A stretch of DNA of 24,942 nt from a virus: IMG/VR virus record IMGVR_UViG_3300005939_000047, positions 1-24,942 of that record. One strand, 5' to 3'. Below the pieces are notes generated by a model. That model was not told the DNA's origin and made no database searches. It saw nothing but the letters and a program-made list of their open reading frames with translations. Of the stretch, positions 296 to 24,942 are shown one piece after another. The translations under genes and the position numbers were made by a program. Positions within the stretch are counted from its first letter, which is position 1, and each line of letters starts with the position of its first letter.

Positions 296-925
296 TTAGC
301 CTCATGTGGTGGGCGGTGTCAAGCCTAGACTTTTACCCTCTTTGTTCGCTTGCATTATCTTTTCCACCACGCTCTTGGTTTGTTGGGTCGCTCCTGTTTC
401 GATTGTGAGCTTATCTTTCCAGTTGTAACGGTGTTTCATTAACAACGCTAGATTTGAGTTGTTGCTACTTGACAGCAATTTTTGCTCGAAAAGCGGTTGG
501 ATAATATCGTTAACAGTCGCGCCTTGATATGAGTTGATATGTATCCCTAGGAACAAGCAGAGTCAGGAGAGAGTAATGTTATAGTCAAGCATCTCGCAGA
601 GCTCTATATATTTATAAGCAAGCTCTTGGAGTTGTTGTTCGGAGTACATCACTCCCTCTTTGTATAGCTCTCTTAGGTGAATGATTTCTGGGTAGTGTTT
701 CAGTGTATGGTTATGTATCATTAAATACTTCTTTGTATCACTCCGTCCTTTGTAGTGGTGTTTTATGTTGTTTGTTTTATTCCTTATGGATTTGGTATCT
801 TCTTGTTTGGCGTTCTCTTTTGTATCGATATTTTTAAGAAATTGTTTTATACTTTCATACTCCTCCTGTTTGTCTGTTATCATTATATTTGTTTGCTCTT
901 CTTTGCTTGTGATTTCTTTTCCCAT
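296..925 (-). CDS. Small terminase / DNA-packaging gp3-like protein
   Basis: The 209 aa protein starts at the ATG at 925; no earlier ATG follows the upstream in-frame TAA. It looks like the small terminase (DNA-packaging gp3) family, which binds viral DNA and hands it to the large terminase. The visible match is in the C-terminal half: an alpha-helical stretch, then LSGLCLFLGI (about residues 119-128, one Gly coded by UGA), as in the family's TITGLALFLG segment, and later HRYNWKDKLTIETG, like the typical NxYGWKDK ending. The first 60 residues are charged and probably disordered. It stands alone, convergent with nothing, next to the G-rich tract. GC content is higher than in the neighbours and only two UGA codons occur, which suggests a different origin. 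A second small terminase gene lies beside the large subunit at 5741, so this copy may be a regulator or a relic. Family moderately sure, role unsure. Confidence 0.6.
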
Positions 926-1129
926 AGATCCAGAGATAATGATATAAATGTTATCTTGTATTTATTGTTTTCTTTTCCCTTTACAATAGAATTTTGTTAA
1001 ATCTTTTCTATTTTCCGCGATTTTCTTTACTTTTCTTTATACCTTATGTATACACTGAAACAGCGTAAGCCCTTTATGTAAGCGGGTGTTTGCTTGCTTG
1101 TTATGTTATAAACTTACTTACACTTGCCC

Positions 1130-1157
1130 TTGCAATTGCATACGAACTATATACAAT
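1130..1157 (+). promoter_or_regulatory. Promoter candidate for the micro-gene cluster
   Basis: TTGCAA (1130-1135) and TACAAT (1152-1157) are 16 bases apart, close to a sigma-70 consensus pair, and lie 31 bases before the ATG at 1189. The 926-1188 gap between the divergent genes otherwise holds only short direct repeats of GTAAGC (near 1065 and 1080). Confidence 0.45.
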
Positions 1158-1188
1158 AGAGCTATAAACATATTAAAAGTATAGACAA

Positions 1189-1284
1189 ATGAAGAAATTA
1201 TTGCGAGTATTTTACAGGTACGCAGAAGAGAAAAAAGAGAACAAGCGACTACTGAAACAAGCCGAAGAGCTGAATTGTTTATAA
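1189..1284 (+). CDS. Hypothetical 31 aa charged protein
   Basis: A short open frame with ATG and TAA, rich in Lys, Arg and Glu (for example YAEEKKENKRLLKQ), predicted to be a single amphipathic helix. It is first in a run of four tiny same-strand genes, has a promoter candidate 31 bases upstream and a hairpin with a T-run right after its stop. I do not recognise it. Support comes from context and the clean flanking signals, not from homology. Confidence 0.4.
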   Translation: MKKLLRVFYRYAEEKKENKRLLKQAEELNCL

Positions 1285-1288
1285 ACTT

Positions 1289-1315
1289 GGAGCGGTGTAT
1301 ATTACACCCTCCTTT
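1289..1315 (+). terminator. Rho-independent terminator candidate
   Basis: GGAG-GGTGTA (1289-1299, one bulged C) pairs with TACACC-CTCC (1303-1312) around a TAT loop and is followed by TTT. It comes five bases after the stop of the 31 aa gene. Confidence 0.5.
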
Positions 1316-1345
1316 AATCTGTTTTTATCATTTCATTATATACTT

Positions 1346-1742: not shown

Positions 1743-1777
1743 TCCAACGAAGCTAAGAAGCATATTATTACATCAAG

Positions 1778-1919
1778 GTGAACTACCCCACGGCTAAAGA
1801 CCGTTGGGGCTTCTCGCTTCAATGATAGATAACCGCTCGTATCTATTGATACTTACTTGTTATTGCTACCTCTGCGAGAGTATACCACTACTGTTCCGTA
1901 ATGGTGTGAGCCGAGTTTA
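1778..1919 (-). ncRNA. Putative omega/reRNA and right end of TnpB element
   Basis: This lies directly after the tnpB stop on the same strand, where TnpB guide RNAs are encoded. The last part forms CCCCA-CGG / CCG-TGGGG around TCTTTAG (1786-1809, one bulged base) and ends GGGGTAGTTCAC. The next bases (1777 to about 1757) would form the guide segment. The call rests on position and hairpin only. Confidence 0.5.
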
Positions 1920-3002
1920 CTAAAGTTTAAGCTCAACTTTTGTGTATCTTAGTATATTTTCAGCCGCTCAAATATCTCTATCATATTCTGCTCAGCATTC
2001 AGAACATTGATACATCCTTTCTGATAACTTTAATACTTTCTTTACATTTCAACACTTACTACATTGCTTGCTTGTTGGATACCATCTGCTAATTTGATGT
2101 GTAGTCTTTCAATACCAATCTGCTTTGTATTGTAATTTATTAACTAATTCAGACCATCATTGATTTCAAATTGCTCTTGCTAGTTTATGATTTCACATCA
2201 TTCACTTCACATTTAGATTTTCTAATCCTATCAAATCATATTCTTTTACTATACTTCTACTAATCTTATGTAGATAGTCATTTCTGTTATTGGCATTATC
2301 TTTGTGTAGTTTAGCAATTTTGGTTTTCAATTGCTTGTATCTACTACTTCACTTCTGCTTTTTAGACATCCACATTTGTAGTCTTTCAATCTCTTTTGTA
2401 TCTTGTTTTTTTGTTTTATATTTTTTTCAATCACTTGTTATTGCTAAGTCTTTTAATCACAAATCTATTCACACTTCTTTTTTTGTCTTCTTATCTTCTT
2501 TGATTTCTTTCTCTACTAATATACTTACATAGTATTTTCAATCTGTATCTTGTGATATTACTAGTGATTTTACTTTTCATTCTATCTCTCTATGTTTTAT
2601 GAATTTCAATCATTGCTTCATCTTAGGTATGTATATTCTGTTTCATTCTATCTTGAAATGTTGTGGTATCTTTACTGATTGTTTAGATTGTTTCTTCTTG
2701 AAGTTCGGAAACCCTCATCATTTGGTAAAGAATTTATTGTATGCTACATCAAGATTTTCAAGTGTAGCTTGTAATGATTGACTGTTTACTTCTTTCAACC
2801 ATTCATATTCTTTTTTCAAACCTACTAAATCATTTGTGTATTCATATTTATTTCGCTTCTTATCCTTGTTTTGTTGATAATCTTGTATGGATTTATTTAG
2901 ATAATAATTTCGTACAAATCTTCAACAACCAAAATATCTTCAAAGAGCTTCTCTTTGATTTGTTGTTATAATTAGCTTGAATTTATACACATAGTTTTTC
3001 AT
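1920..3002 (-). CDS. tnpB: TnpB RNA-guided nuclease (IS605 OrfB family)
   Basis: The 360 aa protein is a full-length TnpB, an RNA-guided DNA nuclease of IS200/IS605 elements and ancestor of Cas12. The N-terminus shows the usual YKFKLIITTNQREAL and FGCGRFVRNYYL segments. RuvC residues are intact: D180 in VGIDLG, E261 in IGLENLNVKG, D343 in YDRDIGAAEN. The zinc finger has C314/C317 (CSKCG) and C333/C336 (CSECG). Several motif Gly residues are UGA, including both Gly of GIDLG and the Gly after each CxxC pair, so the element must have lived in a code-25 lineage for some time. Start ATG at 3002 gives a normal N-terminus (MKNYVYKF). The frame is uninterrupted once UGA is Gly. It lies upstream of a guide-RNA-like region and has broken a KilA-N gene. 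No TnpA is present. Confidence 0.95.
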
Positions 3003-3062
3003 ACTGCCATATATAATGATTTATTTAGTAAAAGCAAGTGAATTTGTTAAAGTCGCTTACAT

Positions 3063-3085
3063 CCTCAACGCTAAAGACATTGAGG
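3063..3085 (-). repeat. Left-end hairpin of the TnpB element
   Basis: CCTCAA / TTGAGG six-base stem with a loop containing TCTTTAG on the minus strand, 61 bases upstream of the tnpB start. The same loop occurs in the hairpins at 1786-1809 and 3310-3332. It could instead be a diverged right end. Confidence 0.55.
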
Positions 3086-3087
3086 TT

Positions 3088-3406: not shown

Positions 3407-3604
3407 TTATTTATTCATTGTTGTAGTATATTCAAACTTGCATTCACATCTCTTGTGTTCTGATTTTTGTTGCATTAATTTGCTAGCCTCTACTAACATC
3501 TCTACTGTCAGACATTCTTTTTTGTCTGCTATTGCGTTTGGATCGCAAGACCTCTGTGTGTATGGGTGTCGTGGTCATTTCAAAAAGTCTAAGAATTTAC
3601 TCAT
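3407..3604 (-). CDS. Hypothetical 65 aa Cys-containing protein
   Basis: Last gene of the minus-strand operon, three bases after the stop of the gene before it. 65 residues with one UGA-Gly (residue 10). It carries Cys residues at RSCDP, KECL and HKRCECKF, which could bind a metal, but the spacing matches no zinc finger I know. No family recognised. Its stop abuts the solo right-end sequence, so the original 3' context may have been lost. Confidence 0.6.
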
Positions 3605-3607: not shown

Positions 3608-3925
3608 TTATTTGATACGATCTAAAATATTTTTAATTATATTCATATTTATATCTAACCTCTTTTCTTTTCTAATCTCCAGTTCTTGATATAGTTTATT
3701 TCTTATATCAGCAGGTTGTGATAATATAAATCATTCAATTTTAGTTGGTTCATATCTCTTTATCGGACATTTCAGATCGAACCTGTGAAATCATATTCAG
3801 TCTATTGTGACTAAATTGTTTGTGTTCAACATATCAGATACTTGCTGCACAGAAGCTTCAGTATTAATCACTGTTCAATCTTTCAGTTGTATCATAGTTA
3901 ATTCTTTGTAGTCTTTAATTAGCAT
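3608..3925 (-). CDS. Hypothetical 105 aa phage protein
   Basis: Second gene of the operon; its ATG overlaps the last 11 bases of the DUF6291-like gene, which suggests coupled translation. The protein contains four UGA-Gly codons, a beta-rich N-terminal half (IQLKDGTVINTEASVQQVSDML, then a VTIDGIGFHRFDL strand) and a charged helical C-terminus (YQELEIRKEKRLDINMNI). Placed next to a replication-type phage gene it may take part in early functions, but I do not recognise it. Confidence 0.65.
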
Positions 3926-5027: not shown

Positions 5028-5077
5028 AATATTACTAAGTGTATATATATTTTTATCTTTTATTTTCTTTATGAAGT

Positions 5078-5416
5078 ATGAGATACAAATTAAAAACAAA
5101 ACCGCTGTCCGTGAATGATGCACGAGTAGGGAAAAGATTTAAAACTATCGACTACAAGACTTATGAAGTTATCATTAAGGCACTGCTGCCAAAGTCTATA
5201 GAGATCAAAGACCCTAAAAGTATGGAGTTGTTTATGAAGCGATGATTTAGTTCTATGGCTTCTGATACTAGTAATCCTATTAAATGTTTTGAAGATTGTC
5301 TGCAAAAGGCATATTGAATTAATGATAAGTATTTCCGAAGAGTGATCGCAGAAAAAGAAATCGTGAAGAAATGACAAGAGTATATTGAGTTCGAAATTAG
5401 ACATTTTACTTGATAA
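5078..5416 (+). CDS. rusA: RusA-type Holliday junction resolvase
   Basis: The 112 aa protein matches RusA endonucleases, which cut Holliday junctions and help phages prepare branched DNA for packaging. The N-terminal LSVNDARVGKRFKT fits the family's LSTNKLY..RRF region, and the metal-binding acidic set is visible: D63, N66, K69 and D73 in SDTSNPIKCFEDCLQ, then D83 in YGINDKYF, ending with EIVKKGQEYIEFEI. The frame contains four UGA-Gly codons. ATG at 5078 was chosen; the ATG seven bases earlier opens a different 23-codon frame. First gene after the promoter candidate, just upstream of the terminase genes. Confidence 0.85.
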
Positions 5417-5424: not shown

Positions 5425-5931
5425 ATGATTAAAGTTACCAAGAAAGATCTTGACAAAAAAACTCCTCCGGTCAAAAAGGCTGAGGAAAAGAAACAAGAAG
5501 ATCCAAAAACACCTGAAATTCCTAGTGATGAACCTATTGAGGTCTTTCCGAAACCTTTTCTTAAATGACAAACTTTAGAAATATTAGATGGTATATATAA
5601 ATGAAAAACAGGGGAGATGTATGATATTAGATATATATTTGTATTATGAATTTGCATACAAGTAATTTTCTTTGTGATAATCGATGGATATAAAATGCTA
5701 CAAATAGACCAAAATATTTTAGTTGCTTATAAACCAAAAAATGACAGAAAAAAACCAAATCCTGCCAAAAAAACTAATAATAAAGACAAAAAAGCAGTTG
5801 AGAAAGGAGCAGATCGCAAGAAAGGCAAGGAAGATAAAGCTTGAAAAGGCAAAGAAACTAAAAGCAGCCAAAGCAAAGAAAGCAAGGCTGTTAAAGATAG
5901 CAAAAAAAGCTGAACTGGAAAAACAGAATAA
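5425..5931 (+). CDS. Hypothetical membrane protein with Lys-rich tail
   Basis: A 168 aa protein with three parts: a charged, proline-rich start (TPPVKKAEEKKQEDPKTPEI), one hydrophobic span at about residues 72-92 (YIFVLGICIQVIFFVIIDGY) and a tail made largely of Lys, Ser, Gly and Ala. The last 191 bases overlap the small terminase gene in another frame, an unusually long overlap in which both readings are Lys-rich. The tail may be the less constrained of the two. No family recognised. Confidence 0.6.
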
Positions 5932-6376
5932 AAATATTGACAAAGATAAGTGATGAAGACCGACAAAAATAGATTATTCAGTCGTACAAATACTTATAGA
6001 CATTTTTAGAGTTGCTTGATCTATTAATGATGCAACGGCTCAGGCTGAGATTTCAAAAGGCACATATCATAATCGAATTAAATATTGAGCTACGTTTTTA
6101 GACATAAATGGTAAAGAAAAAGACTTCAAGACCGAGATGAGGAGAGCTAGAAATTTTCCAAGAGTTGCTTGTAAATCAATAATATTAAATGAAGCCTTTA
6201 AATGAAGCGCCAAAGCATCACTGGAATATTTAAAAAGAATAGATCCCGAGTGGAAAGATAAAGCAGAGTTGTCAGGAGATAACGAAAATCCTGTTGAGAA
6301 GACTATTTTTATTCTTCCTGATAATTGAAGATGACCACAATCCAACCCCAAGAATGATTCCAAACAAACTTCTTAG
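5741..6376 (+). CDS. terS: Terminase small subunit
   Basis: The 211 aa protein binds viral DNA for packaging by the large subunit encoded right after it. A long Lys/Ala-rich helical N-terminus (residues 1-70) precedes GGRPTKIDYSVVQILIDIFR (about residues 72-91) and a helix-turn-helix-like SINDATAQAEISKGTYHNRI. The C-terminal RIDPEWKDKAEL matches the WKDK motif common in this group. It overlaps the upstream gene by 191 bases and the terL start by 46. No ATG occurs in frame between 5741 and the GGRP motif, so either this start or a frameshift from the upstream frame is used. Seven UGA codons are read as Gly. Confidence 0.8.
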
Positions 6377-7860
6377 GATCTAAAGCGGATATTGTTATCG
6401 GATGATGAAAAGCCTGAGCTTGAAAAACAGTGGCACTTATACTTGAGCCACTTAGAAATATAACAGAAGTACAAGATTTTTGATCTGTAATATTCAGGCG
6501 TACTATGCCGATGGTAACTAACCAATGAGGATTACGAGATAAAGCGATGGAATTTTACGCATCTATACCTTGAGCCAGTCCAATGGAAAGTACAAAGACC
6601 TGGAAATTTTTGAATAAAGATTGATTTTCAAATAAATTAAAATTTTCACATCTCGAACACGAGAAAGATAAATTAAATCGACAGTGAACAGAAATACCGT
6701 TTATGTGATTTGATGAATTGACACATTTCTCAAAAACACAATTCTTTTATCTATTATCTAGGAATAGATCTACTTGTTGAGTTCGTCCATACGTTCGTGC
6801 AACTTGTAATCCTGATCCTGATAGTTGGGTTAAAGAATTTATTGAACGATGGATCGATCAAAAGACTTGATATATTATTCCTGAAAGATGTTGAGTTCTC
6901 AGATATTTTACTATGGACTGAGAAAATATAGTACGATGAGACAGCCCCAAAGAAGTTAAAAAGAAGTGTCCTAAAATCTTCAAAAATAAGGAGCTTGCTA
7001 AATATGATATTTCTGATCTTATTAAATCAGTTACTTTTATTGAATGAGATATATACGAAAATAAAAAACTTTTAGATAAAGACCCTGCATATTTAGGAAA
7101 TCTTTTGGCCCAAAGTACACAGGTTAAATCACAACTTTTCGAATGAAACCGAAACGTCAGAGTAGACGGGCTTTCTTTATTCAAAGAAACATCACTAAAT
7201 GATATGTTTAGTAATTTTGTGGAGGACTCAGAAAAAAGATATATTACTGTCGATGTTGCGAGATTATGAAAAGATCTAGCGATAATAAAATGTTGGCAAT
7301 GATTTAAAGTTTATAAAACTCGTGTCTTTACAAAATGTTTGATTACAGATCTTTATAGTGAAATCGAGAAGCTCAGAAAAAGCGAAAGCATCCAAATATC
7401 TAGGACATTGATCGATCAAGATGGAGTATGATGAGGACTGTTGGATATGTGAAGCTATGTTTGATTTAGTTGATGATTGCCTGCACTTCCTGATCCAACC
7501 ACTGAGATCAAAGAGAATTACGCCAATCTAAAGACCCAATGTTTTTATAGGACTGCTGTCAGAATAAATGATGGAAGTATGGCTATAGATACAAAAGATA
7601 TTATGGTAGATGGATTGGTAACAAAAGATATAAAAGTTTGATGACAAATACACGATGTAAAATCTTTAATTAAAAAACAACTTAGATCTATCAAAAAAGA
7701 TAAAATCGACAAAGAGTGAAAGCTCCAAATAAATTCTAAAGAAAACCAAAAGAATAATTTAAATTGAATGTCTCCCGATTTTGCTGATACGATTATGATG
7801 AGAGAATATTTTGAACTAATAAAAGAAATAGACCCAACCGAACAGATATTTTTTAGTTAA
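6331..7860 (+). CDS. terL: Terminase large subunit
   Basis: The 509 aa ATPase-nuclease drives DNA into the procapsid and cuts concatemers. The N-terminus fits (QTNFLGSKADIVIGGGKAGA), with Walker A GGGKAGAGKT at residues 24-33 coded with four UGA codons, Walker B IPFMGFDE ending at D128-E129, and RuvC-like nuclease acids D308 (YITVDVARLGKD), D362 or D364 (LIDQDGVGGG) and D486 (SPDFADTIMM). Length is normal for the family. About 30 of 39 Gly codons are UGA, the highest use among the genes counted. The start at 6331 lies inside terS and gives a complete N-terminus. This gene is the clearest proof of the UGA-Gly reading. Confidence 0.95.
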
Positions 7861-7872
7861 TAAAATACTTTA

Positions 7873-8109: not shown

Positions 8110-8185
8110 TATCACGACTATTGACTATTATAAATTTTTTCCTTATACGGGAGATGATTGTATTTTAAATATTAAAATTTAATAA

Positions 8186-9136
8186 ATGACAAAATTTTCT
8201 GGAAAAACTATTAATGTCTGAATAGTTATAGAGGCTTCACCTGGTGCTGGTGGTGTTCCTGACACTTGGTTCAAATGGAATGAATTATCACTACAAAACA
8301 AAGTGACTCACGTTATGGATGAAAGTTCATTGTGAAATATTGTAGATGTAGCTGACACAGAAATTTCTTCTGAATATGCTGAATGAGGATTATGAGGAAA
8401 TGTAGCGCCTATTTCTATTGGTTGGTTATTATATTTAATTTTCTGACAAGCGCCAGTAACTACTGGAGCAGGTCCAATTTATGACCACACGTTCGAATTA
8501 TTGAATGCTAACACGCAACAAACTGCTGGTATCACTATTGAAAGGCCAACAGATGAATTGCAACACACTTTAAGTTATGTTGAAAATATGACTATCTCTG
8601 CCGAAATAGATGGTTATGTAACAGTTAGTATGAACGTAAAAGGTAAGAAATGAACCGTTGTAACTCATACCGCATCTTTCACTGATGAAAAAGCTTTCGT
8701 TGCTAATATGCTTAAATTATATGTAGCTGATGAGTGAGATAATCCACTATTAGATCCTAATATTTGTCTTAAATCTTTCGAACTTGTCCTAACAAGAGAT
8801 CAGGAGGAGGATAGGTGTATGTCTGATATAGCTATGGGAGAACAAATCACAAATAAATTTATAATTACAGGATCGTTTGAAGTTACTATGGAAGATAGTG
8901 ATGATATGGATGATTACTGTAACAACCAATATAAAGCAATATCTATTGTGATCGAAAATGCAGACTCAGATATATTAACTTTCACTATGCCAAAAGCTGT
9001 ATATGTAAATCGAACGCCTGCAATGTCACTTGATGCTATAACAAAACAAACTATAGAATTTAAAGGTCTATATTCTACTTCAGAAAGCAAAGCAATAAAT
9101 GCTGTCCTAGAAAATACTTTAGCTTCGTATGTTTAA
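8186..9136 (+). CDS. Phage tail tube protein
   Basis: The 316 aa protein resembles the tail tube family whose members open GIEATPGTA; here VGIVIEASPGAGGVPDTWFK. It continues with an NIVDV..TEISSEYAEGGL stretch and NVAPISIGWLLYLIFG, the pattern of a mostly beta-sheet tube subunit with an early helix. It would stack in rings around the tape measure to form the siphovirus tail. Seven of about 22 Gly are UGA, fewer than in the terminase, which fits a strongly expressed gene. Its place before the protease and capsid genes is unusual; tail tube genes normally follow the neck genes. Confidence 0.75.
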
Positions 9137-9167: not shown

Positions 9168-9929
9168 ATGGACGCAATAAATATAATTATAAAAATAATA
9201 ACAGAGGAAGTCGCAAAGCAATATAGGGAATTTGTTGAAACTGCTGTAGACATAAAAGTTTCTGATGAGGACGACAATACTTTTAAAGTTATCGCAAATA
9301 GTTGAGAAGAAGACAGAGTATGAGATATTGTTATTGCAGCAGGAGTAGATACAAAAAATTATATGAAAAATCCAATTGTATTGGCGGATCATAGATATGC
9401 AATCGCAAGTATTGTCTGAATTTGAACTAAGGTATATGTTGATTGAAAAAAACTTATTCTTGAATGAAAATTTGCAGATAGCCCGATGGGAGATTTATGT
9501 AAATCATTATATAGTCAAGGAGCATTAAAAACTGTTTCAATTTGATTCATAACTAAACAAAGAAACGAAAAAAATAGAGACATCATTGAGAAATCAGAAC
9601 TATTAGAAGTTTCTTTTATACCAGTACCTTGTGATGCAGGAGCTGTAAGTTTAGATAAAAAACAATTAGAATTATGAATAGAGATTTGATTAATTTCTAA
9701 AGAAGTTGCCAAAAAAATAGAAACGATGGATGAAGTTGTTGAAAGTATTAAATCATATATCGACGAAAAATTCGATACTATGACAAAAGAAATCAAAACA
9801 GTAACATCAAAAGATACTGAAGATGGGGAGAACAACCCACCCGAAGAAAAAAAGGTAGAGATTACAAAAGAACAAGCACAGTTATTTGTAAAAGCTCTTA
9901 GTGAATGATTATTCACTGCCAAAAAATAA
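9168..9929 (+). CDS. HK97-type prohead protease
   Basis: The 253 aa protein is a capsid maturation serine protease (S78 family type) that trims the scaffold domain of the capsid protein. Visible residues are the catalytic H75 in VLADHRY, S124 in LKTVSIGF and the conserved EVSFIPVPCDAGA segment. The start region reads DIKVSDEDDNTFKVIANSGE, matching the usual beta-strand opening. The last 90 residues are a charged, helical tail (ESIKSYIDEKFDTMTKEIKT) that may act as scaffold. It lies 28 bases before the major capsid gene, the standard partner. Confidence 0.85.
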
Positions 9930-11181: not shown

Positions 11182-11187
11182 CATATT

Positions 11188-11590: not shown

Positions 11591-12211
11591 ATGAACGACT
11601 TGGACTATATATTGGGGCTAGTAAAAACTGCGTTGGGAATAACCGGTACTACTAGGGATGACGAACTAAAGCAATGGATCGAGTGAGCCATTGACTATAT
11701 TTCTAATTATACTCATCGTCCAATTCGTTCAGAAGACATAGTAGAAGTTTTAAATTGAGGAAAAAATAGTAATATTATAAAATATCCAACTGATGCTATA
11801 ACAAAAGTCGAATATAGAGTTGACTATACTCGAACAGAAGAAACTATAGTGTCTTGATCTATATTAATGGATTATAGAAATCCATATTTTATTGATAGAA
11901 CAACTCTAGGAGTAAAAAATCTTAGACTTTCATATACTACAGGTCGAACATTACAAACTGATCCAGTACCACCACTAACAGAGGCGACAATAGGAACTTT
12001 GCCAAATGATTTATACACAGTTATAGTAAATTATGTTGTGGCCGTAGATAAATTAAATAGTTCTTGAATTATAGATGGAGTTAAATCAGAAAAATTGGCC
12101 GATTATTCTATCACTTTCAAAACATCTTCAGAAATGAGTAGTGGAAACATCTTATTGTCATCGTCGGATAAGACAATTTTAGATACCTATGTTTTATATA
12201 ATCTAGTATAA
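11591..12211 (+). CDS. Head-tail connector (gp6-like adaptor)
   Basis: The 206 aa protein fits the head-tail connector type that docks under the portal. The diagnostic region is the helical start LGLVKTALGITGTTRDDELK followed by QWIEGAIDYISNYTHRPI, as in the family's D..L..lI..A...ie.yt.r. It continues with TDAITKVEYRVD and a beta-rich C-terminus. Position after the capsid and before the head-closure gene agrees. The stop is one base before the next ATG. Confidence 0.75.
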
Positions 12212-13400: not shown

Positions 13401-15410
13401 ATGAATATTATACAAAAAATAGTATCAAGAGTATTATGAGTACAAAAAACAGCAACAGTAAGTAATCGATTTCCTGATGTTGTTTCTAGTGATCCTACAT
13501 CTCTATCAAGATGAGACTATATAAAATATTTCAAGTCTTGGCAATATATTGCTATCACTACAATTTGAGATGCTATGTCAGCTCAAAAAACAGTATTAAA
13601 AAATAAACAATGAAACGAAAGGAATCATCCATATATGAAATTTATGACATCTGAATTAATAAATTCAGTATCTCATAGTTACGAATTATTCGGGACTGCT
13701 TATATTTTAATGATAAGAGCTTCTGAAACTTCAGCGGTTCAATGATTAAGAATATTAAGGCCTGATTTAATGCAAGAAGATTTTGACGAACGTGGAAGAT
13801 TAAGACAATGGTTTTATTATGGAGAAAACACAGTAACAAATATACACAAAGAAGATGTAATAGTTGTTGCTGATTGGAATCCATATCAAGAATATCCACA
13901 TATAACTAGATGAGTATCAAAACTTTCTGCAGCAGCAGGAACGATATTAAATGATGAAATATGAACTATATGGAATCAACAAAATATGACTGATTGAAAC
14001 ACTAGGACTCCAGTTATTACATCGTCTCAATCACTAACGAAAGATCAAATAAAAATTATGAAAGATTCACGAGACGAAAGTCATTGATGAGTTTGAAAAC
14101 AAAATTGAGCTGCATTTTTGGCCAATTGATTTCAAATACAAAACTTGAATCCAACTCCAAAAGATATGGACTATCCTTTACAACAAAAATGGGATGCAGA
14201 AAAAATATTGGCAACTTATAGAGTTCCAAAAGCTGTTACCGGTATGTGAGAGGGTGTGAATGTTTGAAATGTTGAAGCGTTTAATTCTATATTTGCTGAA
14301 AGAGCTTTGACTCCGTTGGCTCAAAAAATATCTACAGCATTTTCAACTACATTATTCAGTTGAATAGGTACATACGAGTTTGTAAATATTATGCCAGTTG
14401 AGGAAGATAATATTAGAAATAATTACAATACTGGGCTTATATCTCAGAATGAGGGTAGAAATTCTCTAGGATATAAATCAGTTAAATGATGAGATGTATT
14501 TGTTGATGGCGCTCCAGCTGTTACAGAAATTTCAGGAAGTAAAAAAGATATAGAAAAGAAAAGTATATCAGATACTATAGTAAATAAATTCTCTTTATTA
14601 TTAAAAGAAGTTGAACCAAAAAAACGAAGTGAAGATCGAATGGAAAAGAAAATTTCTAAGAAAACTAGGAGAATGAAAAAATATTACAAACCATACAATG
14701 CAAAATTACAAACAATATTCTGAATACAAGAAAAAGATATAATGAAACAATATGATTCACAGACAAAAGATATAAAAGAAATATCTATAGATATGAAAAA
14801 AGTATCAGTCTCATTATGAAATAAATATACTAATGCCTATTTGAGATTATTAGGCCCTGTTCAAAAGGATTTAATGGAATCAGAATGACAATTAGCTATG
14901 AATGAGGTTAAAGATATGGCTTTTGATGTGAACACAACAAAATCTAAGAAGATCCAAAAATGAATACTAACTAATATGGCACAAGAGGTCGACAAAGTTA
15001 CTGACAAGAAATTGAACGCAGTAATCGATGCAGGAATACAAGGTTGATTATCTCCTGATGAAGTGAGAGTATCTATACAGTGAGTATTTACAGAACTTTC
15101 AACAAGTAGAGCCAAAAAAATTGTTAGAACAGAAACTATGAGAGCAGCCACAGACTCACAAATATTAGCTCGAGATCAATCAAATATTGTTAAATGAAAA
15201 GAACGATACACAGCTCAAGACGAAAGAGTTTGTGAATGGTGTGGTCCTCTACATTGAAAAAAAATAGGCTTAACAGATCCGTATTTCAAGAAATGAGATA
15301 AATATAAAGGTAGGGATTGATGAACAATGAAACTAGATTATTCATCTACCGAATGATCTCCACTACATCCAAATTGTAGATGTGATTTAATACCTATCGT
15401 AGAAGACTAA
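13401..15410 (+). CDS. Portal protein fused to MuF head-morphogenesis domain
   Basis: The 669 aa protein joins two normally separate head proteins. Residues 1-370 form an HK97-type portal (YIAITTIGDAMSAQKTVL early, SYELFGTAYILMIR, later LATYRVPKAVTGMGEGV, FAERALTPLAQKI), the dodecameric ring through which DNA enters. A helical linker follows. From about residue 565 the MuF/SPP1 gp7 module appears: RAKKIVRTETMRAATDSQ, then RVCEWCGPLHGKK and SPLHPNCRCDLIPIVED with the typical Cys-His set. Its location after the tail completion gene, away from the terminase, is unusual. The frame is continuous with UGA as Gly. The portal part and the MuF part are both clear. Confidence 0.88.
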
Positions 15411-15725: not shown

Positions 15726-15907
15726 TAATTAAGACATCATTATATGAAATATCTAAAATCGGGATAGCTAGTAAAATTAATTATACAGATGAAATAATAA
15801 ATGTTAGAATTATGCAGTTTATGAGTCGATCATACAATGATTTGATGGATACACCGATAGAATATGTAAATATTATTTTAGAAATGATAAACAAAGATAA
15901 TGGCTAA
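15435..15907 (+). CDS. Tail assembly chaperone, -1 frameshift product (GT-like)
   Basis: Shifting back one base in the A10 run continues translation from 15719 (KDIIIKTSLYEISKIGIASK) for 62 codons to TAA at 15905-15907, adding a helical T domain that ends VNIILEMINKDNG. The extension has no start of its own close to its beginning and would otherwise leave a gene-sized gap before the tape measure, whose ATG (15900) overlaps it by eight bases. The resulting protein is about 157 aa, normal for GT chaperones. Confidence 0.75.
15709..15719 (+). promoter_or_regulatory. Slippery A10-G ribosomal frameshift site
   Basis: Ten consecutive A followed by G, read as CAA AAA AAA AAG in the zero frame, allows -1 slippage of tandem Lys tRNAs. 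The zero-frame stop TAA is at 15723. No clear downstream pseudoknot was found by eye. Confidence 0.7.
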
Positions 15908-17408
15908 AGAAAGCGTCGTAAAAGTAATAATAAATTGAGTTGATAATTCTAAGAAAGCGTTGAATTCTGCGACGAAGTCAGTTTCTAAATTTGCAAAAGC
16001 TAATAAAACCACCTTTAAAAAGATGGCTGCTGTTTGAACAGTTGCCTTTGCTGCCGTAGTAGCGTTCGGATCTAAAATGGTAAAGCTTGCAAACAATCAA
16101 ATAGAACAAGAAAAGAAATTAGCTGTTGTATTAAGACAAAGAACAAAAGCAACAGACGATCAAATAGAATCCATAAAAAATTTAGCCAAAGAACAACAAA
16201 AACTTTGAATTCTTTGAGATGAAATACAACTTGCCTGAGCGCAACAGTTGGCCACTTTTGTTAAAAGTACAAAATCAGTAGAAAATCTTTTGCCAGCTAT
16301 GAATAATTTAGTAGCACAGCAAAAATGAGTTAAAGCAACTCAAGAAGATATGATAAATATTGCAAATCTTATGGGAAAAGCTTTAGATGGTCAAGTTTGA
16401 GCTTTGAGTAGAGTTGGAATATCTTTCTCAGACGCACAAGCAGAAATATTAAAGACCGGAAATGAAATGGAAAGATCAGCTATTCTTGCTGAAGTTATTA
16501 CCTGAAATGTTTGAGAAATGAACAAAGCACTTGCACAGACTACGTTTGCTGGTAAAATGACACAGCTAAAAAATAACTTATGAGATGTATGAGAAACTAT
16601 AGGAAAAGCACTTATTCCAATGCTTGATTTATTAGTTGATAAAATTGTTCCAGTTGTGACAAAATTTGCAACTTGGGCAGAAGAAAACCCTAAATTAATA
16701 AGAAATATATTAGTAATTGCTGGTGCTGTTGCTTGATTAGTGGCAGTTGTTGGTTTATTATGACTTGCTTTGCCTGGTCTTATTACAGGTATAGCTGCTT
16801 TAAATACTGTATTACTTGCCAATCCTTTTTGATTGGTGTTAGTAGCTATAGTTGCAGTTACTACGGCAATGAGAAAATTGGCCGATATGACTCAGACTAC
16901 AACTGAAAAAATGGAAAGTTATAGACAAGAATTGAGTGATTTAGACGAACAATACTCAAATTGAGAAATTACACTCGGTGATTATTTAAAGAAAACTGCT
17001 GAAGTTAGAGATCTAATGAATAGTGCTGCAGACGCTGCAACAACCTTTGGATGAACTCTTAAAGATAATTTATTCGATATGTTAAACACTATTGCAAGGC
17101 CTATTCAGTCAACAATAGATCTTATAAATCAATTAAGAAAAGCGTTCGGCCTGGCAAGTACATTATCAACAGGCGACACAGATCTATCAAAAGTAACAGG
17201 TTCAGCTCGTTGAGGAGGTTTGTTTGCAGGAAATGCTGGTGGATGAGTAACTGCATCGCCAACAGAATTCCAAACAAATATAACTTTACAATGATGAGTA
17301 AATGTCTCAGATCCAGCAGATGCAGAAGCATTTATGGAGAAAATATGAGGATTTGTAAAAGACACTATAAAAAATTCTTATAAAACAGCTTCTTTATGAA
17401 ATACTTAA
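15900..17408 (+). CDS. Tail tape measure protein
   Basis: The 502 aa protein sets tail length and passes into the cell envelope with the DNA. Residues 155-195 match the tape measure core (DGQVGALSRVGISFSDAQAE), followed by a TFAGKMTQLKNNLGDVGETI segment and ALIPMLDLLVDKIVPVV, TWAEENPKLIRNI (about 255-270), then two or three hydrophobic stretches to about residue 325 (VIAGAVAGLVAVVGLLGLAL). The Gly-rich C-terminus holds AGNAGGGVTASP. At 0.15 nm per residue the length would correspond to a tail near 75 nm, an inference. Overlaps the chaperone extension by eight bases. Confidence 0.88.
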
Positions 17409-17414: not shown

Positions 17415-18260
17415 ATGTTCTGAAACCTACTATATGTAAATTGAGTTTATTGAGAAAATCACGTGTTTAATGCACTGTGATTTGATTTTGATGATTTATA
17501 TTATAATCTATTTTGATCTTATAGTTGGATAAAAATTACAAATATGCCTGATATTTGGAGTTTAGATCAATTAGATTATAGAAAATTTGATATTGCCGTA
17601 CAACCTGGAATGTGAGAAAGCGAGTACAATATTAAATCTAAAAAAATTACTGTAAATTGTAGCATACACGCAGACTCAGAATCTGATTTACAAGATAAAA
17701 TTACAATTATGAAAGCTGATTTGGCAATGTATGATGAAGCCAAAAAATCTTTATATCTTAAATTAAAAAATTGAGTAGTAGTGCAAGCGCCAGCTAAACC
17801 TATTAGATGTTACATACCTAGAGAACAATGGACGATAGGCGTTGTATTAAAAGTTGTTGTAGTTTTTGAAATTATAAATCCTTTTTTATTGACTGTAGAC
17901 AGGACGTGATACAGTTATCCTAATATTACGACTTTGGTAAATGATGATATATTGTTGACCGAATCAGAAGATTTAAGTAATCCAAAAATTATTATAGTTT
18001 TTAATTCTGCGACAGCAGTTACTGAATTAGTAGTTTCGATATGAAATAAATCTATTACAATAAACGAAGCGATAAGTCCCCTAGATATAATAGTGATTGA
18101 TCCTACGGAATATCAAGTATCTATAAATGATATTTCCGATGGGATTGATCGAGACTGAATATTCCCTGTTTTATTTCCTGGAACAAATCTATTTACTGTT
18201 CAGCCGAACGGTACTTATGACTTTAGCGCCTTTATATCATTTTCTAACTCTTATGTATAA
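17415..18260 (+). CDS. Dit-like distal tail protein
   Basis: The 281 aa protein follows the tape measure, where siphoviruses place the distal tail protein that joins tube and baseplate. The N-terminal half is consistent: an early NALGFDFDDLYY stretch, DQLDYRKFDIAVQPGMGE, then KKITVNCSIHADSESDLQDK and IMKADLAMYDEAKKSLYLKL, with beta strands and one helix as in Dit ring domains. The second half is beta-rich (FEIINPFLLTVDRTGYSY). The family match is by layout; the next gene starts within its last eight bases. Confidence 0.65.
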
Positions 18261-19350
18261 TATAAAAATATATGGGAGACCTTGAATAAATCTATATAAA
18301 GTTTTATCTCCCAAAAAAATTGAAAGTAATTATGCTTTTAGTGAAACAGTGGACTTTGGGCAACAAGAATTCACATTTAGTTATTATTGAGGTAGATTTG
18401 TTGAAAATTCTATTGAATGAACGGTCGATTTATTCAAAAATAGGAATATAGTAGAAGTTTATCAAGACTGAATATTGATATATACTTGATGGGTTGTATC
18501 TATAATAGAAAAAGAAGATAAAAAATGATATAGGTTTGATATAAAAATATCTTGATTAGCAAGTTTATTGTCAAAGGTTGTATATAGTGGATCATTATCA
18601 ATTACAAATCCAACTACTGCAATCCTACAATGTATAAGTGAAGTAAATACAAAGCTTGGGTTGAATATAGATGTTACGAAAGTGCAAACATATACTAACC
18701 CGTATAATTGGAAGATAAAAAATGCTAGAAATTGTGTTGATGTATTGAGTCAGGCAATGGAGAAAACAAAAGATCGATACTTCTTTATAAACGAACAAAG
18801 GGAGGCAATATTTCAACCATATACATCTTGAGCTAGTGAGGAACTAATATTTTGAGAAGAAGTCTCAGCAATATCTGTCGAAACAGATACAACATTATTG
18901 ATAAATAAGGTATATATAAAATGGAGATTTACTACAAGAACTGAAATCAGGGCAGAAGATCCAGACAATCCATGAAGTTTTATAAATGTATGGGTTGATG
19001 ATATACTTATTTGAGATGTTATAGTTGAAGACGCAGTATCGATAGCAGCAAATTGATTATTAGAAACTGAGATATATTTGGAGCAGGAAGTAGATTCTAA
19101 CTCAGCAGCCACAGAATATTGAGAAGATTATTTAAGTAAACAAACAATTCAGGAATTTAATTTAATTAGATTAGAAAAACCAAAACAATGGGAATGATTA
19201 CATCCAGGAGATAATATAACAGTTAGGAATTCAGAAATATTAATTAGAAATGATATAATTAAAAAAATAGTTTATGATAAAGATGGTGCAGTTATTGAGA
19301 CAAAAGATTATGAAAGTTTGGAACAATTTTTAGAAACTAACACAGCATAA
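18253..19350 (+). CDS. Gp37-like / Tal-like baseplate protein
   Basis: The 365 aa protein resembles siphovirus Gp37-like proteins that form the tail tip with Dit: the opening MYNIKIYGRPGINLYKVLSP is followed by DFGQQEFTFSYYGGRF, DLFKNRNIVEVYQDGILIYT and GWVVSIIEKEDKKGYRFDI, the pattern of the gp27/Tal N-terminal barrels. The centre contains YFFINEQREAIFQPYTSGAS, and the end EGLHPGDNITVRNSEILIRN. ATG at 18253 is needed: no other start precedes LSPKKIESNYAF. Both ends overlap neighbouring genes (ATGTATAA at the start, TAATG at the end), so translation is probably coupled. Confidence 0.65.
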
Positions 19351-20969
19351 TGGGAATATACTACAAATTAAAAGACGATTCACAGGCAACTATTGACGCT
19401 CCAGTTAGTGCAGGAGATACAATAATTGTATTAGGTGCTTGACAGGGTGCAAATTTACCTGATCTTGATCCAGGAGAAACATCAAAAATTGCATTATGAC
19501 AACTTGTTTCATCTCCAACAGTATTAAATGTATTTCAAAAATTTGAGGTTGTTTTAATGACAAATAAATCGTGAGATGTTATAACTGTTACTAGAGCGCA
19601 AGACGGTACTATAGCACAATCATTTCTAGTATGAGATATTGTCGGATGTTTTGTTTTGGCTTCACATCTTACACAAATGCAAACTATAATAGATGCAAAA
19701 TTGGATCTAGCTGATTATATATCTTGAGACAAAATTTATTGAAGCTCTACAACTTGAACTGATGCCTACGCAATTACATTGTCGGATGTTTCAGCTCTAA
19801 CAGATTGAATGAGAGTATTCTTTGATGTTGACACTGCAAACACTGCAGCAGCGACTCTTGATGTTTCATCTCTAGGTGCAAAAGATCTTACAATATTTGG
19901 TTGAGATGCTTTACAAACTTGATATATAAGTGCCTGACAAATAGTTGAAGCGACACGAGACGCAGCAAATGATTATTGGGAAGTTATATCTGTAGTTGAT
20001 AATAGTGATGTAATTATAACATCTAAATTTACAGAAAATGTGACATTATGAGAAACCATAACAGCTGGAGATCAGTTGGGATCAATTTATATAGATGATT
20101 CAGATTGAAAAGCATATAATACAGATTCAAACACTGCATCAAAAAATAGATGTGATTGAATAGTAATTCAAAGTTGAGTATTGGACGATGTCGTTCCTAT
20201 GATTAAATGATGAGATTTAGACCAATCAGCAGTTACAGAATGAGAATATTTCTATCTTATGAAAGCTCAAAGTTTACCTGAACAGATCCAAAGTTGATAT
20301 GTATTTACTGAAAAAATTAGTATATCTTGAATATCTTGAACACCTACACAATTCTCTTTTGATCTTAAATGTGATAATGCTATTGGTACAGTACAAGCAG
20401 AGGCGATGGTAAAAATAAATTGAGTACAAGAGGGTAGTACACAAGTAAATGTTACAACATCCTATGTTGCAAAAACAATCACATATACAACACCTATAAT
20501 TGAAACCGATATAATAACAGTTGAAATCAGATTGAATACTGGAGCAACTTATGCTTATATTAAAAATTTTGTTATCGAATGAATAGATACAGACTGAAGA
20601 TATTGAATTTCTGCAAATAGAAATCCTTGAGATACTCCTGTATTGGTTGGAAAATCAACAAAAACTACACAAATAAATATGCTAATAGATGAGCAAAATT
20701 TCGTTGATGCGTACAAAGTACAAGAGCCACATACACTACTTGATAACACTGTTTATCAAGCTGAAACAGACTGATTTGTTGTTGCATATATTACCTGATC
20801 TTGATCTTTAAAAGGATATATGGACGCAATAGATGCTACGACTCAAATAACTGCGTTTAGTTGAACAGAATGAACAGCAGTATTTCCAGTGACTAAATGA
20901 CACTATTATAAAGTAGTTCAAGGATCGGCGTCACTAACTGGAGCAAGGTTTTATCCATTATCTACGTAA
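19350..20969 (+). CDS. Tail fibre / receptor-binding protein
   Basis: The 539 aa protein looks like a tail fibre. The middle segment TLSDVSALTDGMRVFFDVD, TANTAAATLDVSSLGAKDLT and IFGGDALQTGYISAGQIVEA is the usual phage fibre repeat with glycine turns, and residues 300-470 form a likely carbohydrate-binding-like beta region (SGTPTQFSFDLKCDNAIG). It begins MGIYYKLKDDSQATIDAPVS. Its ATG overlaps the previous stop. Most Gly are UGA. It may bind the surface of the small host; the target is unknown. Confidence 0.65.
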
Positions 20970-21692: not shown

Positions 21693-21716
21693 TTTTATTT
21701 TTTTGCTACAACTAAA

Positions 21717-23447
21717 ATGTTTAAAAGATTTAAAAACACAATATTAATATTATCATCAATATTATTAATATGAAGTGCGTTTGCTTTGCCAAAATGGACG
21801 TCTCTTTGGAAAGCACAAGATGCAATCGCTTTGCCAGTTACTCAGATAATTTCTTGATGAACTCAAAGCGGAAGCTACGTAATTTGATGAGATGTGATCG
21901 CTAATTTATGAGATAATTCCAGTGGTCGGGTTATTATAGATAATCTATATAATTCTAATTGAATTTCCTATAGCACTGGTTGATGAGGAGTTTCTTCAAC
22001 TGGTTATTGGTATCTTGATTGAAGCGCTGAAAATTATTTAAGCACAACTTGAATCGGAAACTATGCTCTAGCAAATGCCAGCAAATGATTTGCGGTCGGT
22101 ACTCTTTGATCTCATTTAAATCAAGCCTCAAACCAAACTTGGTTATCTTTTGGTTATGATAATTGAATGAGAGAAAATATAACTGAATCAGTATTTGTTT
22201 GAATAGGTGTCGATTGACACGCAAATACAATGAATCAAGTATTAGTTGGTAAATGATTATATCACGATACAACTAACGCAGTTGTATATTGAATATATAA
22301 CGAAGACGATACATCAAATCTAATAGTAATTTGAAATGGTGCGTCTGATGGTGCTAGAAATAATGCAATAGAAATAGAAGTTGGATCTAGCTGATTATGG
22401 CTACCATACCTATTAAATTATTCTTTGATATGAACGGACGGCGCTGGTAGATTAATAGAAGCTACTGAAACAGATCCAGTTTGGACTGCTGTTAGTGGGA
22501 ATTATTTACCACGAACTTCTGTAACTACTGGTATTGTTTACCCTTGAAGTGATGTCCTAATACCTAGTTCATCTTCAATATTTACTTACCTAGATACAAT
22601 AGCAAATGATTTAGGTAGTGTAATTACTACTTGAGCTTATATATTAAGTTGAGAAACGGCAGTAGTTGCTTGTACTTCTTGACAAAAACAGGTAGCAATA
22701 ATTTGATGAGATTTAGCTTTACAGACTTGTGTTTGAACTGGTTGGACAGCAGAAAGCTGATTTGGTTGAGCGTTCTTAACTACAAGTAATGTGACTTCAA
22801 ATAGTCCTTGAACTTTAGCAACAGATGACTTTGTATTTGGTAGTACTTGATTAAGTGATACTTGACCTGATTGAGATAAGAGAATGCAATTTGATAAGTC
22901 TTTATGATTTTTCTGAGCAGGAGTTGCACAAAGTACACAATGGGACACTAGATGAAACTCAGCAACAGTATTTTGAACAAATAATGAAGCACAAGCTACA
23001 AATAGTTTTGCAATATGAAGTGCCTGTAAATCGGCAGGAAATCAAGCGTTTGTTTGATGAGTAAGTGCTTGGAATTATGGTGTTGCGTCTTTAGCTTATT
23101 GAAGTCTTTTTAGAGCATCAAATAAAAATTCAATATCTGTTTGATATGGTTCGGCAGTGACTGATACAGCAGGAACAGCAGTAAGATTGGAAGCTGATAG
23201 TGACCAAGATAATAGTAAAAAACCCGCAATCTTTATTAGAACAGGAGTAGCACCTAGTACAACTACAGATAGAATGTATAATGTAGGTTGAGATTTAATG
23301 TGGAATTGAGAAGAAGTGATTACACAAATATATACAAATCCAACCACACCTTGATTAGATTTCCAATTTGCTTTTAGTTGATGACTTATGGAAGCACAAT
23401 ATTATACAGGTTGAGCTTGGACTACATCAACAATATTTACACCTTAA
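21717..23447 (+). CDS. Secreted YadA-like adhesin or surface protein
   Basis: A 576 aa protein that opens with a good signal peptide (MFKRFKNTILILSSILLIGS, then AFA just before a likely cleavage near residue 24). The body is beta-rich and full of Gly, Ser, Thr and Asn. Short segments follow the YadA/trimeric adhesin head pattern: GNYALANASKGFAVGTLG, NSFAIGSACKSAGNQAFVGG, ISVGYGSAVTDTAGTA. In the phage tail-fibre block this may be a fibre, but a signal peptide implies export from the host, so it may be a surface protein made during infection or lysogeny. Head-like repeats moderate, signal peptide clear. Many UGA-Gly codons. Confidence 0.6.
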
Positions 23448-23471
23448 ATAATTTTATAACTAAATACAACT

Positions 23472-23717
23472 ATGCAAACAATCAAGAAACACTCTTTTAA
23501 GATAGCTGTTTGAACTGTAATAACTGTTGTATTGGCAGTGGTAGTTTTTGGTATAAGAGCTTGAGTATTTATGTCTGATGTAGCACAAAACACAGATAAC
23601 ATAGAAAAGAATACTGTAAAGATTGATAAGGTATTAGACAAGATTTGAATAATGAATGAATTGGTTGTAGAAACTTCTACTAATGTTAAACGATTAGTAC
23701 AAGAAGAAATGAAATAG
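23472..23717 (+). CDS. Holin-like membrane protein
   Basis: An 81 aa protein with a basic start (MQTIKKHSFK), one transmembrane span at about residues 10-31 (IAVGTVITVVLAVVVFGIRA) and a helical, coiled-coil-like remainder (DNIEKNTVKIDKVLDKIGIM). Size and layout fit single-span phage holins or membrane-anchored accessory proteins. It lies among secreted proteins at the end of the late operon, where lysis genes usually lie, but no endolysin accompanies it here, so the role is an inference. Confidence 0.5.
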
Positions 23718-23742
23718 ATTTTATAAATTAAAATAATTTATT

Positions 23743-24726
23743 ATGTTTAAAAAGATTTTATATAGTTTGGTATGACTGTTGTTAGTGTGATGATTGTTTT
23801 GATTTGCAAATGCACAGTTAGTAGCTTCATCTCAAACAGTAGATGAAGAATTATCTATTGGTTGAAGTCCTTTGGCTATTGATTTTGATGATGATTGAGA
23901 TAGATTATATATATTAGATACAAATAATGATTTATATCTTTGGGATTGTACTGGTGCTTATGATGTGTCTACTTGTACTAAATCAGCTACAACTATTGAT
24001 ATATGATTACAAGATTCAACACCAAAGGACATAAAATTTTGAAATAGTTGAAATAATTTTTATGTTCCTTGAAATGCAACAAATACTATAATGCAATATA
24101 ATTGTACTGGTGCATATGATTTAACAACTTGTACTTATAGTCAGTCTTCTGCTCCAGGTAGTGAAACAGATGTGACTTGAATTAGTTTTAAATCAGGTTG
24201 AACTATATTATATTATGTTTGAACTACTGATTGGATTAGAAAAGCAACTTGTACTACTGGGCGAGATATTTCTAGTTGTTCTTATGTTGCTTGAAAAGAT
24301 TTAGATGATTGGGGAGTGTATTTTCAATCAATATATGTTGATGATACTGAAACAGACGCTTATATTTATGATAGCTCTTGAATTTTGTTTTGGTTTAAAA
24401 TGTGAACACCTTGAGATGCTAGTACAACAGTCCCACACAATTCGACAAGTATGAAAACTCAAAAGGTAGTAACATTTTGAAATACCTATCAAACAGACTT
24501 TATAAATTGAACAATATATTTTTGAGTATGAGGTTATTTATTGCAAATGGAAGATGCTTTTAATCTTAGTCCAACTATCACAGTAAACTACAATGCTACT
24601 TCTACAGGAGTAGTATGTGATTGAGTAAATGAAATAACAGTACCTTGAAATATAAAAGAAGTAAGTGTAGTATGAACTATGTATAGTTTCATAGTACAAA
24701 CATTTAGAACATTATTTAGACTTTAA
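23743..24726 (+). CDS. Secreted protein with paired-Cys repeats
   Basis: The 327 aa protein starts with a signal peptide (MFKKILYSLVGLLLVGGLFG, then FANA). The first half contains three repeats built on C-x8-C: C69/C78 (WDCTGAYDVSTC), C121/C130 (YNCTGAYDLTTC) and C170/C179 (ATCTTGRDISSC), about 50 residues apart, each followed by strand-forming sequence. The spacing resembles beta-propeller blades, with probable disulfides after export. The end has no second membrane span (SVVGTMYSFIVQTF is only mildly hydrophobic). Function unknown; export suggests action outside the host cell or in the envelope. Confidence 0.65.
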
Positions 24727-24750
24727 TTAATTAAGAATATTATTAAGATA

Positions 24751-24942
24751 ATGGAAATACGAGAACCGAACTTTGTTAAAGAAATAGTTGATTGAGGATT
24801 AAGAAAAAATCAGAAGATAGAATTGTTAGAAAAGGTACAGGAAGAACTGACAGAATTATTTGAAGCAGATATACTTGATGAAGCCTTATACAACAAGGCA
24901 TATAATAATTGTTATGAGTGAGCGAAGAAATTATTAAAATAA
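24751..24942 (+). CDS. Hypothetical 63 aa acidic helical protein
   Basis: A 63-residue protein rich in Glu and Lys (KIELLEKVQEELTELFEADI) with two UGA-Gly codons, probably an antiparallel helical hairpin. Its TAA is the last codon of the window, so whether it belongs to a longer operon cannot be seen. No family recognised. Confidence 0.6.

Follow-up and report, generated by a model that had tools for sequence, protein, structure and literature searches.

The genes of this phage fragment read UGA as glycine, which is certain, and, as judged from codon comparisons, CGA as tryptophan, that is, they use the code of the Absconditabacteria, which we take to be NCBI table 37, rather than table 25. 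It is very likely that the whole gene set of the stretch analysed here (24,942 nt, hereafter the window) is in this code, and that the phage infects Absconditabacteria and is translated by the machinery of its host.

The window, an incomplete fragment of 24.9 kb with a GC content of 0.32, belongs to a siphovirus-type tailed phage (Caudoviricetes), as established by Pfam and PHROG matches to terminase, portal, HK97 capsid, tape measure, tail tube and distal tail (Dit) proteins (Table 1). Three overlapping contigs from other metagenomes cover positions 7502-15576 with identities of 100%, 99.99% and 100% (1 mismatch in 16,710 bases); since they agree, sequencing error is excluded for this part. 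A megablast search of the window against named phages and an Rfam search gave no match.

Table 1. Features of the window, with the evidence for each and the TGA and CGA (or CGG) codons counted in them.
Position	Strand	Feature	Evidence and codons
296..925	-	Gene without assigned function, perhaps linked to DNA packaging	GP3_package Pfam E 0.0035, below cut-off (very weak); 2 TGA, 1 CGG
1760..1919	-	Omega-RNA / TnpB element right end (probable)	Hairpin and GGGGTAGTTCAC at end, a terminus presumably resembling IS200/IS605 ends; fold z-score -3.9
1920..3002	-	TnpB (IS200/IS605 OrfB) RNA-guided nuclease	PF01385, PF07282, PF12323; phrog_506 391 bits; 20/24 Gly as TGA, including the Gly of each CxxCG and the two in VGIDLG; 2 CGA
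3407..3604	-	Small gene	ORF only; 1 TGA, 1 CGA
3608..3925	-	Small gene	ORF; 4 TGA, 0 GGN codons
3915..4685	-	DUF6291 protein	PF19808, 80 bits; 9 TGA
5072..5416	+	RusA-like gene, 5' end uncertain	phrog_11573: 113.0 bits with CGA=Arg, 121.4 with CGA=Trp; 5 TGA, 3 CGA
5425..5931	+	Gene without assigned function	ORF; 5 TGA
5897..6376	+	Terminase small subunit (TerS), 5' end uncertain	phrog_4102: 38.3 bits, 44.7 with CGA=Trp; 7 TGA, 1 CGA
6325..7860	+	Terminase large subunit (TerL), start TTG (6325) or ATG (6331)	phrog_979: 287.9 bits, 316.4 with CGA=Trp; 30 TGA, at 6403, 6406, 6415 and 6421 in Walker A IGGGKAGAGKT; 5 CGA, as Trp at 6535, 6679, 6847, 6934 and 7150
8186..9136	+	Tail tube protein	PF18906, 73 bits; 7 TGA
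9168..9929	+	Prohead protease	PF04586, phrog_80; 10 TGA
9958..11181	+	HK97-type major capsid protein	PF05065, 112 bits
11240..11578	+	Gene between capsid and connector, without assigned function	ORF; 4 TGA
11591..12211	+	Head-tail connector	phrog_442: 49.9 bits, 55.4 with CGA=Trp; 4 TGA, 2 CGA
12213..12530	+	Head-tail joining gene (probable)	ORF and position only; 4 TGA
12517..12948	+	HK97 gp10-like tail completion protein	PF04883; TGA at 12760 in HEGTR
12954..13391	+	Tail terminator (probable)	ORF and position only; 4 TGA
13401..15410	+	Portal fused to Mu F-like head protein	PF04860, PF04233; phrog_2662: 212.2 bits, 233.2 with CGA=Trp; 30 TGA; 6 CGA, as Trp at 15204
15900..17408	+	Tape measure protein	phrog_28 and others; 22 TGA
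17415..18260	+	Distal tail protein (Dit)	PF22768, phrog_33; 10 TGA
18253..19350	+	Tail-associated protein (probable)	ORF and position only; 14 TGA
19350..20969	+	Tail fibre-like protein	phrog_8469, phrog_4900; 32 TGA
21717..23447	+	Large Gly-rich protein, signal-peptide-like start	ORF; no match in Pfam or PHROG; 49 TGA
23472..23717	+	Small membrane-type protein	phrog_3961, 23.8 bits
23743..24726	+	Repeat protein, signal-peptide-like start	ORF and direct repeats; no family match in Pfam or PHROG; 24 TGA

Open frames 450 bases or longer take up 4% of the window under table 11, against 79% when TGA is taken as a sense codon. The first-pass annotation had described in-frame UGA in every long gene and stops at TAA or TAG, and both observations hold: TGA accounts for 326 of 7,308 codons and occurs in all 28 genes counted, being spread alike over early-type left-hand genes, the TnpB element and structural genes; no internal TAA or TAG was found in these 28 genes, and the 27 checked terminate at one or the other. 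Moreover, UGA stands at the obligatory glycine sites which that annotation had listed, with correct coordinates (four in Walker A, both TnpB CxxCG knuckles, VGIDLG and HEGTR).

The meaning of each codon was evaluated by a codon-column test with Codetta-like profiles, in which standard-code homologues served as yardstick; the capsid, tail tube, connector, protease and Dit genes, having no alignable standard-code homologues among the loci compared, were left out, most of them being judged by their PHROG scores instead. In the 68 TGA columns, whose tabulation had been proposed in the first-pass annotation, glycine was the best of 20 residues (+43.7 nats), followed by asparagine (+7.3), which was rejected at a distance of at least 36 nats, tight turns being common to the two residues. 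As had also been claimed, TGG is tryptophan (+27.1 nats over 13 columns), and every other codon with at least 20 columns kept its standard meaning. A Mycoplasma-like code 4, with UGA as tryptophan, could be called by software offering few codes (VIRE gives it for such phages, and geNomad-based surveys for 7.5% of predicted Patescibacteria phages), but it deserves practically no credence and was rejected, tryptophan scoring −76.5 nats at the TGA columns in the first test and giving lower Pfam scores than glycine in all ten matched genes (for instance 73.2 vs 106.2 bits for the portal and 61.6 vs 83.8 for OrfB_IS605). Chance is excluded as a source of the in-frame TGA, because glycine rises from 3.1% of residues with GGN alone to a normal 7.6% when TGA is added, while reading TGA as tryptophan would bring this residue above 5%.

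The proposal of code 25 was therefore right for UGA, but not for the table as a whole, as the CGA columns give tryptophan. In these columns (n = 9, from TerL, TnpB and portal only) tryptophan reached +23.6 nats and arginine −10.0, with tryptophan as top residue in six; none of 20,000 random draws of nine columns scored as high, their maximum never exceeding 3.1, and in the same test AGA, AGG and CGT columns gave arginine. Reading CGA as tryptophan also improved the scores of independent PHROG models for TerL (+28.5 bits), portal (+21.0), the RusA-like gene (+8.4), TerS (+6.4), connector (+5.5) and TnpB (+4.9). Plain code 25, in which CGA would still be arginine and either Gracilibacteria or Absconditabacteria could serve as host, shares the certain glycine reading of UGA, and three genes with one CGA each (tail tube, capsid and Dit) score slightly higher under it, by 1-3 PHROG bits; losses of this kind are expected at unconserved sites, but they are not support for the tryptophan reading. 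Against the column values, the PHROG gains and their repetition in a relative (see below), plain code 25 appears very improbable. CGG (2 of 7,308 codons, none in aligned columns) is too rare to weigh and is probably tryptophan as well; per 10,000 codons, the window has 41 CGA and 3 CGG. The CGA reassignment had escaped the first-pass annotation.

Searching for four in-frame TGA in Walker A retrieved 16 contigs; judged by open frame and motif, five of these (L222, L226, L228, L234 and L140) seem to be true UGA=Gly phages and the other 11 chance matches. L140 is a distant relative, its TerL being 52% identical to that of the window, and its own columns independently gave TGA as glycine (+28.2 nats) and CGA as tryptophan (+13.1, vs −7.1 for arginine), with 20 CGA codons vs 7 TGG. 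In L222, tryptophan was favoured at CGA in the three genes scored (+7.8, +3.3 and +4.6 bits on the best family); in L226, L228 and L234 the scores moved in both directions. The major capsid gene of the window uses TGA for only 3 of its 30 glycines, an avoidance that is a recurrent pattern, seen in four phages with UGA as glycine.

The combination of UGA as glycine and CGA as tryptophan favours Absconditabacteria over Gracilibacteria as host, a proposal for which the code is the basis; the two groups had been named together at first, which was right in kind, but CGA as tryptophan makes Gracilibacteria less likely. We infer the host and its tRNAs, and likewise that the phage has no suppressor tRNA elsewhere in its genome. 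The phage would infect Absconditabacteria (SR1) and be translated by the host's own machinery, with a host tRNA-Gly (anticodon UCA) reading UGA, a host tRNA-Trp (anticodon UCG) reading CGA, and release factor 2 presumably absent from the host. Alternatively, the host could use the standard code and the phage bring a suppressor tRNA-Gly(UCA), UGA serving to time late expression, a device of some large recoded phages. Such phages exist, the Absconditicoccaceae phage RSA-ATP1 carries this tRNA according to the description available (PMC13059738), and tRNAs could lie outside the fragment; no tRNA gene was found in the window, however, UGA is present in all genes counted, including the early-type ones on the left and the TnpB element, and not in late genes only, and a shift of CGA to tryptophan would also require displacing the host's arginine reading, so that we regard this as improbable. 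Somewhat less so, though still unlikely, is a Gracilibacteria lineage sharing the CGA reassignment, which would leave the code right and place the host outside Absconditabacteria. Some Gracilibacteria are inferred to read CGG, and only CGG, as tryptophan, but Absconditabacteria alone have been reported with UGA as glycine and CGA/CGG as tryptophan (PMC8629427). A TnpB search of genomes kept 80 loci, none named Absconditabacteria or Gracilibacteria, with 45% identity at best.

By itself, UGA as glycine adds one more case to a known kind, since phages of these bacteria in code 25 are already published. The CGA result adds virus-side evidence for a change predicted in Absconditabacteria from rare codons, for which its authors still await experiment (PMC8629427); our reading of the literature turned up no phage described with this sense-codon change. 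As a whole, we consider it rather probable that Absconditabacteria phages followed their hosts through both the stop and the sense reassignment, some lineages going beyond what is reported for hosts (L140 uses mainly CGA for tryptophan), that the CGA reading, a host signal within the sequence, may sort Absconditabacteria from Gracilibacteria phages without spacers, that published code-25 protein sets of such phages hold arginine for tryptophan, and that selection against UGA in the major capsid gene suggests a limit set by UGA-Gly decoding on high expression. When the genes of such phages are translated with code 25, or by automatic tools with code 4, arginine takes the place of conserved tryptophans. 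The avoidance of UGA in capsid genes offers a way to test what decoding it as glycine costs. A standard-code cell could scarcely express a genome that needs the stop reassignment and the sense reassignment together, a point that matters for the breadth of host range such phages can have.

Among known systems, the terminase relatives in the standard code (L002 and other loci, Bacteroides phage LoVEphage, Rhizobium phage RHph_N28_2) belong to the same family, at about 30-48% identity, and provide the yardstick for codon meaning; unlike the genes of the window, theirs have open frames with table 11. From spacer matches, Liu et al. 2023 assigned 57 phages to Gracilibacteria and 50, mostly in code 25, to Absconditabacteria, and they also listed 27 prophages (PMC10746230), so that the earlier view of the window as belonging to a small number of known phages of these bacteria was too strong. 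These share with the window tailed-phage genes, dense in TGA and open only under UGA as glycine; their phages are linked to hosts by spacers, the window by its code alone, and that study compared codes 11 and 25 only, CGA and CGG not being mentioned in the paper (PMC10746230). RSA-ATP1, a complete tailed phage of 39,071 bp described in 2026, is comparable in the description available, as a tailed phage with UGA as glycine and an inferred host (Absconditicoccaceae); it was called in code 25, CGA not being a topic of that description, and has four tRNA genes, including the tRNA-Gly(UCA), in contrast to none in the window fragment (PMC13059738). Two phages reading AGG as methionine are likewise cases in which phage and presumed host have a sense-codon change in common, and they have no tRNA for AGG (Shulgina and Eddy 2021, PMC8629427), although codon, amino acid and host are others. 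The Absconditabacteria code of the same study was derived from bacterial genomes, whereas the window is viral: both have UGA as glycine, CGA as tryptophan, rare CGG and low GC. In Absconditabacteria, whose clades have a GC of 0.26-0.38, CGA stays under 37 per 10,000 and CGG mostly under 7, so that CGA, at 41 per 10,000, is slightly commoner in the window (PMC8629427).

Under table 11, open reading frames of at least 450 bases covered 4% of the window, against 79% with TGA as a sense codon; read-through of TAG or TAA instead gave 13 and 41%, respectively. TGA accounted for 326 of 7,308 codons across 28 genes, and no internal TAA or TAG was present in the 27 genes checked. The first-pass annotation had assigned the genome to code 25 (UGA as glycine), citing UGA at conserved glycine positions, and in-frame TGA was indeed found at the sites named in the terminase, in the gp10-like protein, and in both CxxCG knuckles and VGIDLG of TnpB. 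Part of the window was also represented in three contigs of other metagenomes, and a single mismatch was counted over 16,710 bases; sequencing error therefore does not explain the codons there.

Features discussed in the text, with coordinates in the window unless another contig is named
Feature	Coordinates (strand)	Remark
TnpB right end	about 1775-1815	
TnpB gene	1920-3002 (-)	
TnpB residue 345	1968-1970 (-)	UGA
Further hairpin	about 3045-3095 (-)	CCTCAATGTCTTTAGCGTTGAGG
Second hairpin	3290-3420 (-)	ends in GGTGTAGTTCAC
Terminase small subunit (TerS)	5897-6376	
Terminase large subunit (TerL)	6325-7860	
TGA, terminase Walker A	6403, 6406, 6415, 6421	
Overlap with three contigs	7502-15576	
Major capsid	9958-11181	UGA 3/30 Gly; other genes 323/524; Fisher p 1.5e-8
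TGA, HEGTR of gp10-like protein	12760	
Portal fused to Mu F-like domain	13401-15410	
Large protein	21717-23447	signal-peptide-like start
Large protein	23743-24726	signal-peptide-like start; three repeats around CTGAYD.xTCT
Capsid of L140	8214-9347	UGA 9/38 Gly; other genes 100/144; p 5e-7
Capsid of L222	5240-6445	UGA 0/34 Gly; other genes 75/253; p 3e-5
Capsid of L226	382-1596	UGA 5/27 Gly; other genes 98/136; p 3e-7

In the column test, TGA, CGA and CGG were masked in the window proteins, profile HMMs were built solely from relatives translated with table 11, and per-residue log-odds were summed over the columns beneath each codon. At TGA (68 columns) glycine scored +43.7 nats and asparagine +7.3, all other residues being negative; with a simpler precursor of the test, glycine stood at +58.8, asparagine at -31.4 and tryptophan at -76.5. 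Moreover, glycine outscored tryptophan at TGA in 10 of 10 Pfam-matched genes (portal, 106.2 vs 73.2 bits; OrfB_IS605, 83.8 vs 61.6), which bears out the glycine assignment. UGA is the commonest glycine codon in the window genes, raising glycine from 3.1% of residues (GGN alone) to 7.6%. At TnpB residue 345, in the DRDxNAA motif, a UGA codon occupies a column that is Asn in 98% of TnpB relatives; glycine there is an unusual substitution, adjoining the RuvC active site.

Code 25 leaves CGA as arginine, and this part of the assignment did not hold. Several arginines of the window terminase, all encoded by CGA, aligned with conserved tryptophans. Over 9 CGA columns the column test gave tryptophan +23.6 nats and arginine -10.0, the maximum for random sets of 9 other columns being 3.1 in 20,000 draws; tryptophan was the top residue in six (TerL 71, 119, 175, 204 and 276; portal 602). 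AGA, AGG and CGT read as arginine, and every codon with at least 20 columns, except TGA, kept its standard meaning. As an independent check, PHROG models, not built in the present analysis, gained bits when CGA was changed from Arg to Trp: TerL 287.9 to 316.4, portal 212.2 to 233.2, RusA-like 113.0 to 121.4, TerS 38.3 to 44.7, connector 49.9 to 55.4 and TnpB 386.2 to 391.1; three genes with one CGA each lost 1.2 to 2.7 bits. Tryptophan then makes up about 1.3% of residues. CGG occurs twice in the window genes.

A terminase motif with in-frame TGA led to other contigs. One of them, L140, whose TerL is 52% identical to that of the window, gave TGA=Gly +28.2 and CGA=Trp +13.1 (Arg -7.1); its main tryptophan codon is CGA, which outnumbers TGG 20 to 7 over the whole locus. 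In L222, with a different terminase, CGA=Trp was better in 3 of 3 genes with a match, and L226, L228 and L234 are UGA=Gly phages in which the change from Arg to Trp at CGA raised some scores and lowered others. UGA supplied 10, 24, 0 and 19% of capsid glycines in the window, L140, L222 and L226, respectively, against 30-72% in other genes, the capsids being identified by Pfam in the first two and by PHROG in the others. Most simply, this probably reflects selection against decoding UGA as glycine in the gene expressed at the highest level.

Judged by its genes (terminase, portal with Mu F-like domain, prohead protease, HK97 capsid, connector, gp10-like, tape measure, tail tube, Dit and fibre-like), the window is a siphovirus-type tailed phage. 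It is probably a genome fragment, since head and tail genes are present and no lysis or integration genes belonging to the phage itself were recognised within the 24,942 bases. The nearest named phages share about 30-48% TerL identity, and no DNA similarity to named phages was detectable. The second hairpin, upstream of TnpB, resembles the TnpB right end, and the further hairpin lies between it and TnpB; they may represent a nested insertion or an element that lacks TnpB. The signal-peptide-like starts of the two large right-hand proteins are unusual among phage structural genes, and neither protein had a family match.

The two-change code runs throughout the fragment, early-type genes and TnpB element included. 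Translation would depend on a host supplying tRNA-Gly(UCA) and tRNA-Trp(UCG), presumably one of the Absconditabacteria; the GC of 0.32 and the usage of CGA and CGG (41 and 3 per 10,000) are consistent with values reported for them. A code switch by phage suppressor tRNAs in a standard-code host is unlikely, because UGA also occurs outside the late genes and the change extends to a sense codon; the unseen remainder of the genome could nevertheless carry tRNA genes.

We file the window under the Absconditabacteria code (NCBI table 37) rather than plain code 25, as a UGA=Gly phage that has the CGA change in addition. Code-25 phages and prophages of Absconditabacteria and Gracilibacteria are known (Liu et al. 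2023, PMC10746230), with no mention of CGA in that paper, and our searches of open papers gave no report of the change in a phage, an absence that is not proof. In the VIRE database 7.5% of the phages predicted for Patescibacteria are listed under code 4, and some of these may be UGA=Gly phages mislabelled by software offering few codes. The Absconditicoccaceae tailed phage RSA-ATP1 carries tRNA-Gly(UCA) (PMC13059738), whereas no tRNA genes were found in the window fragment. Shulgina and Eddy 2021 (PMC8629427) inferred both CGA and CGG as tryptophan in Absconditabacteria, besides UGA=Gly, whereas in Gracilibacteria only CGG looks like tryptophan, and only in some; they also noted phages sharing another sense-codon change, AGG as methionine. 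In its use of CGA as tryptophan, L140 is further along than the Absconditabacteria they described.
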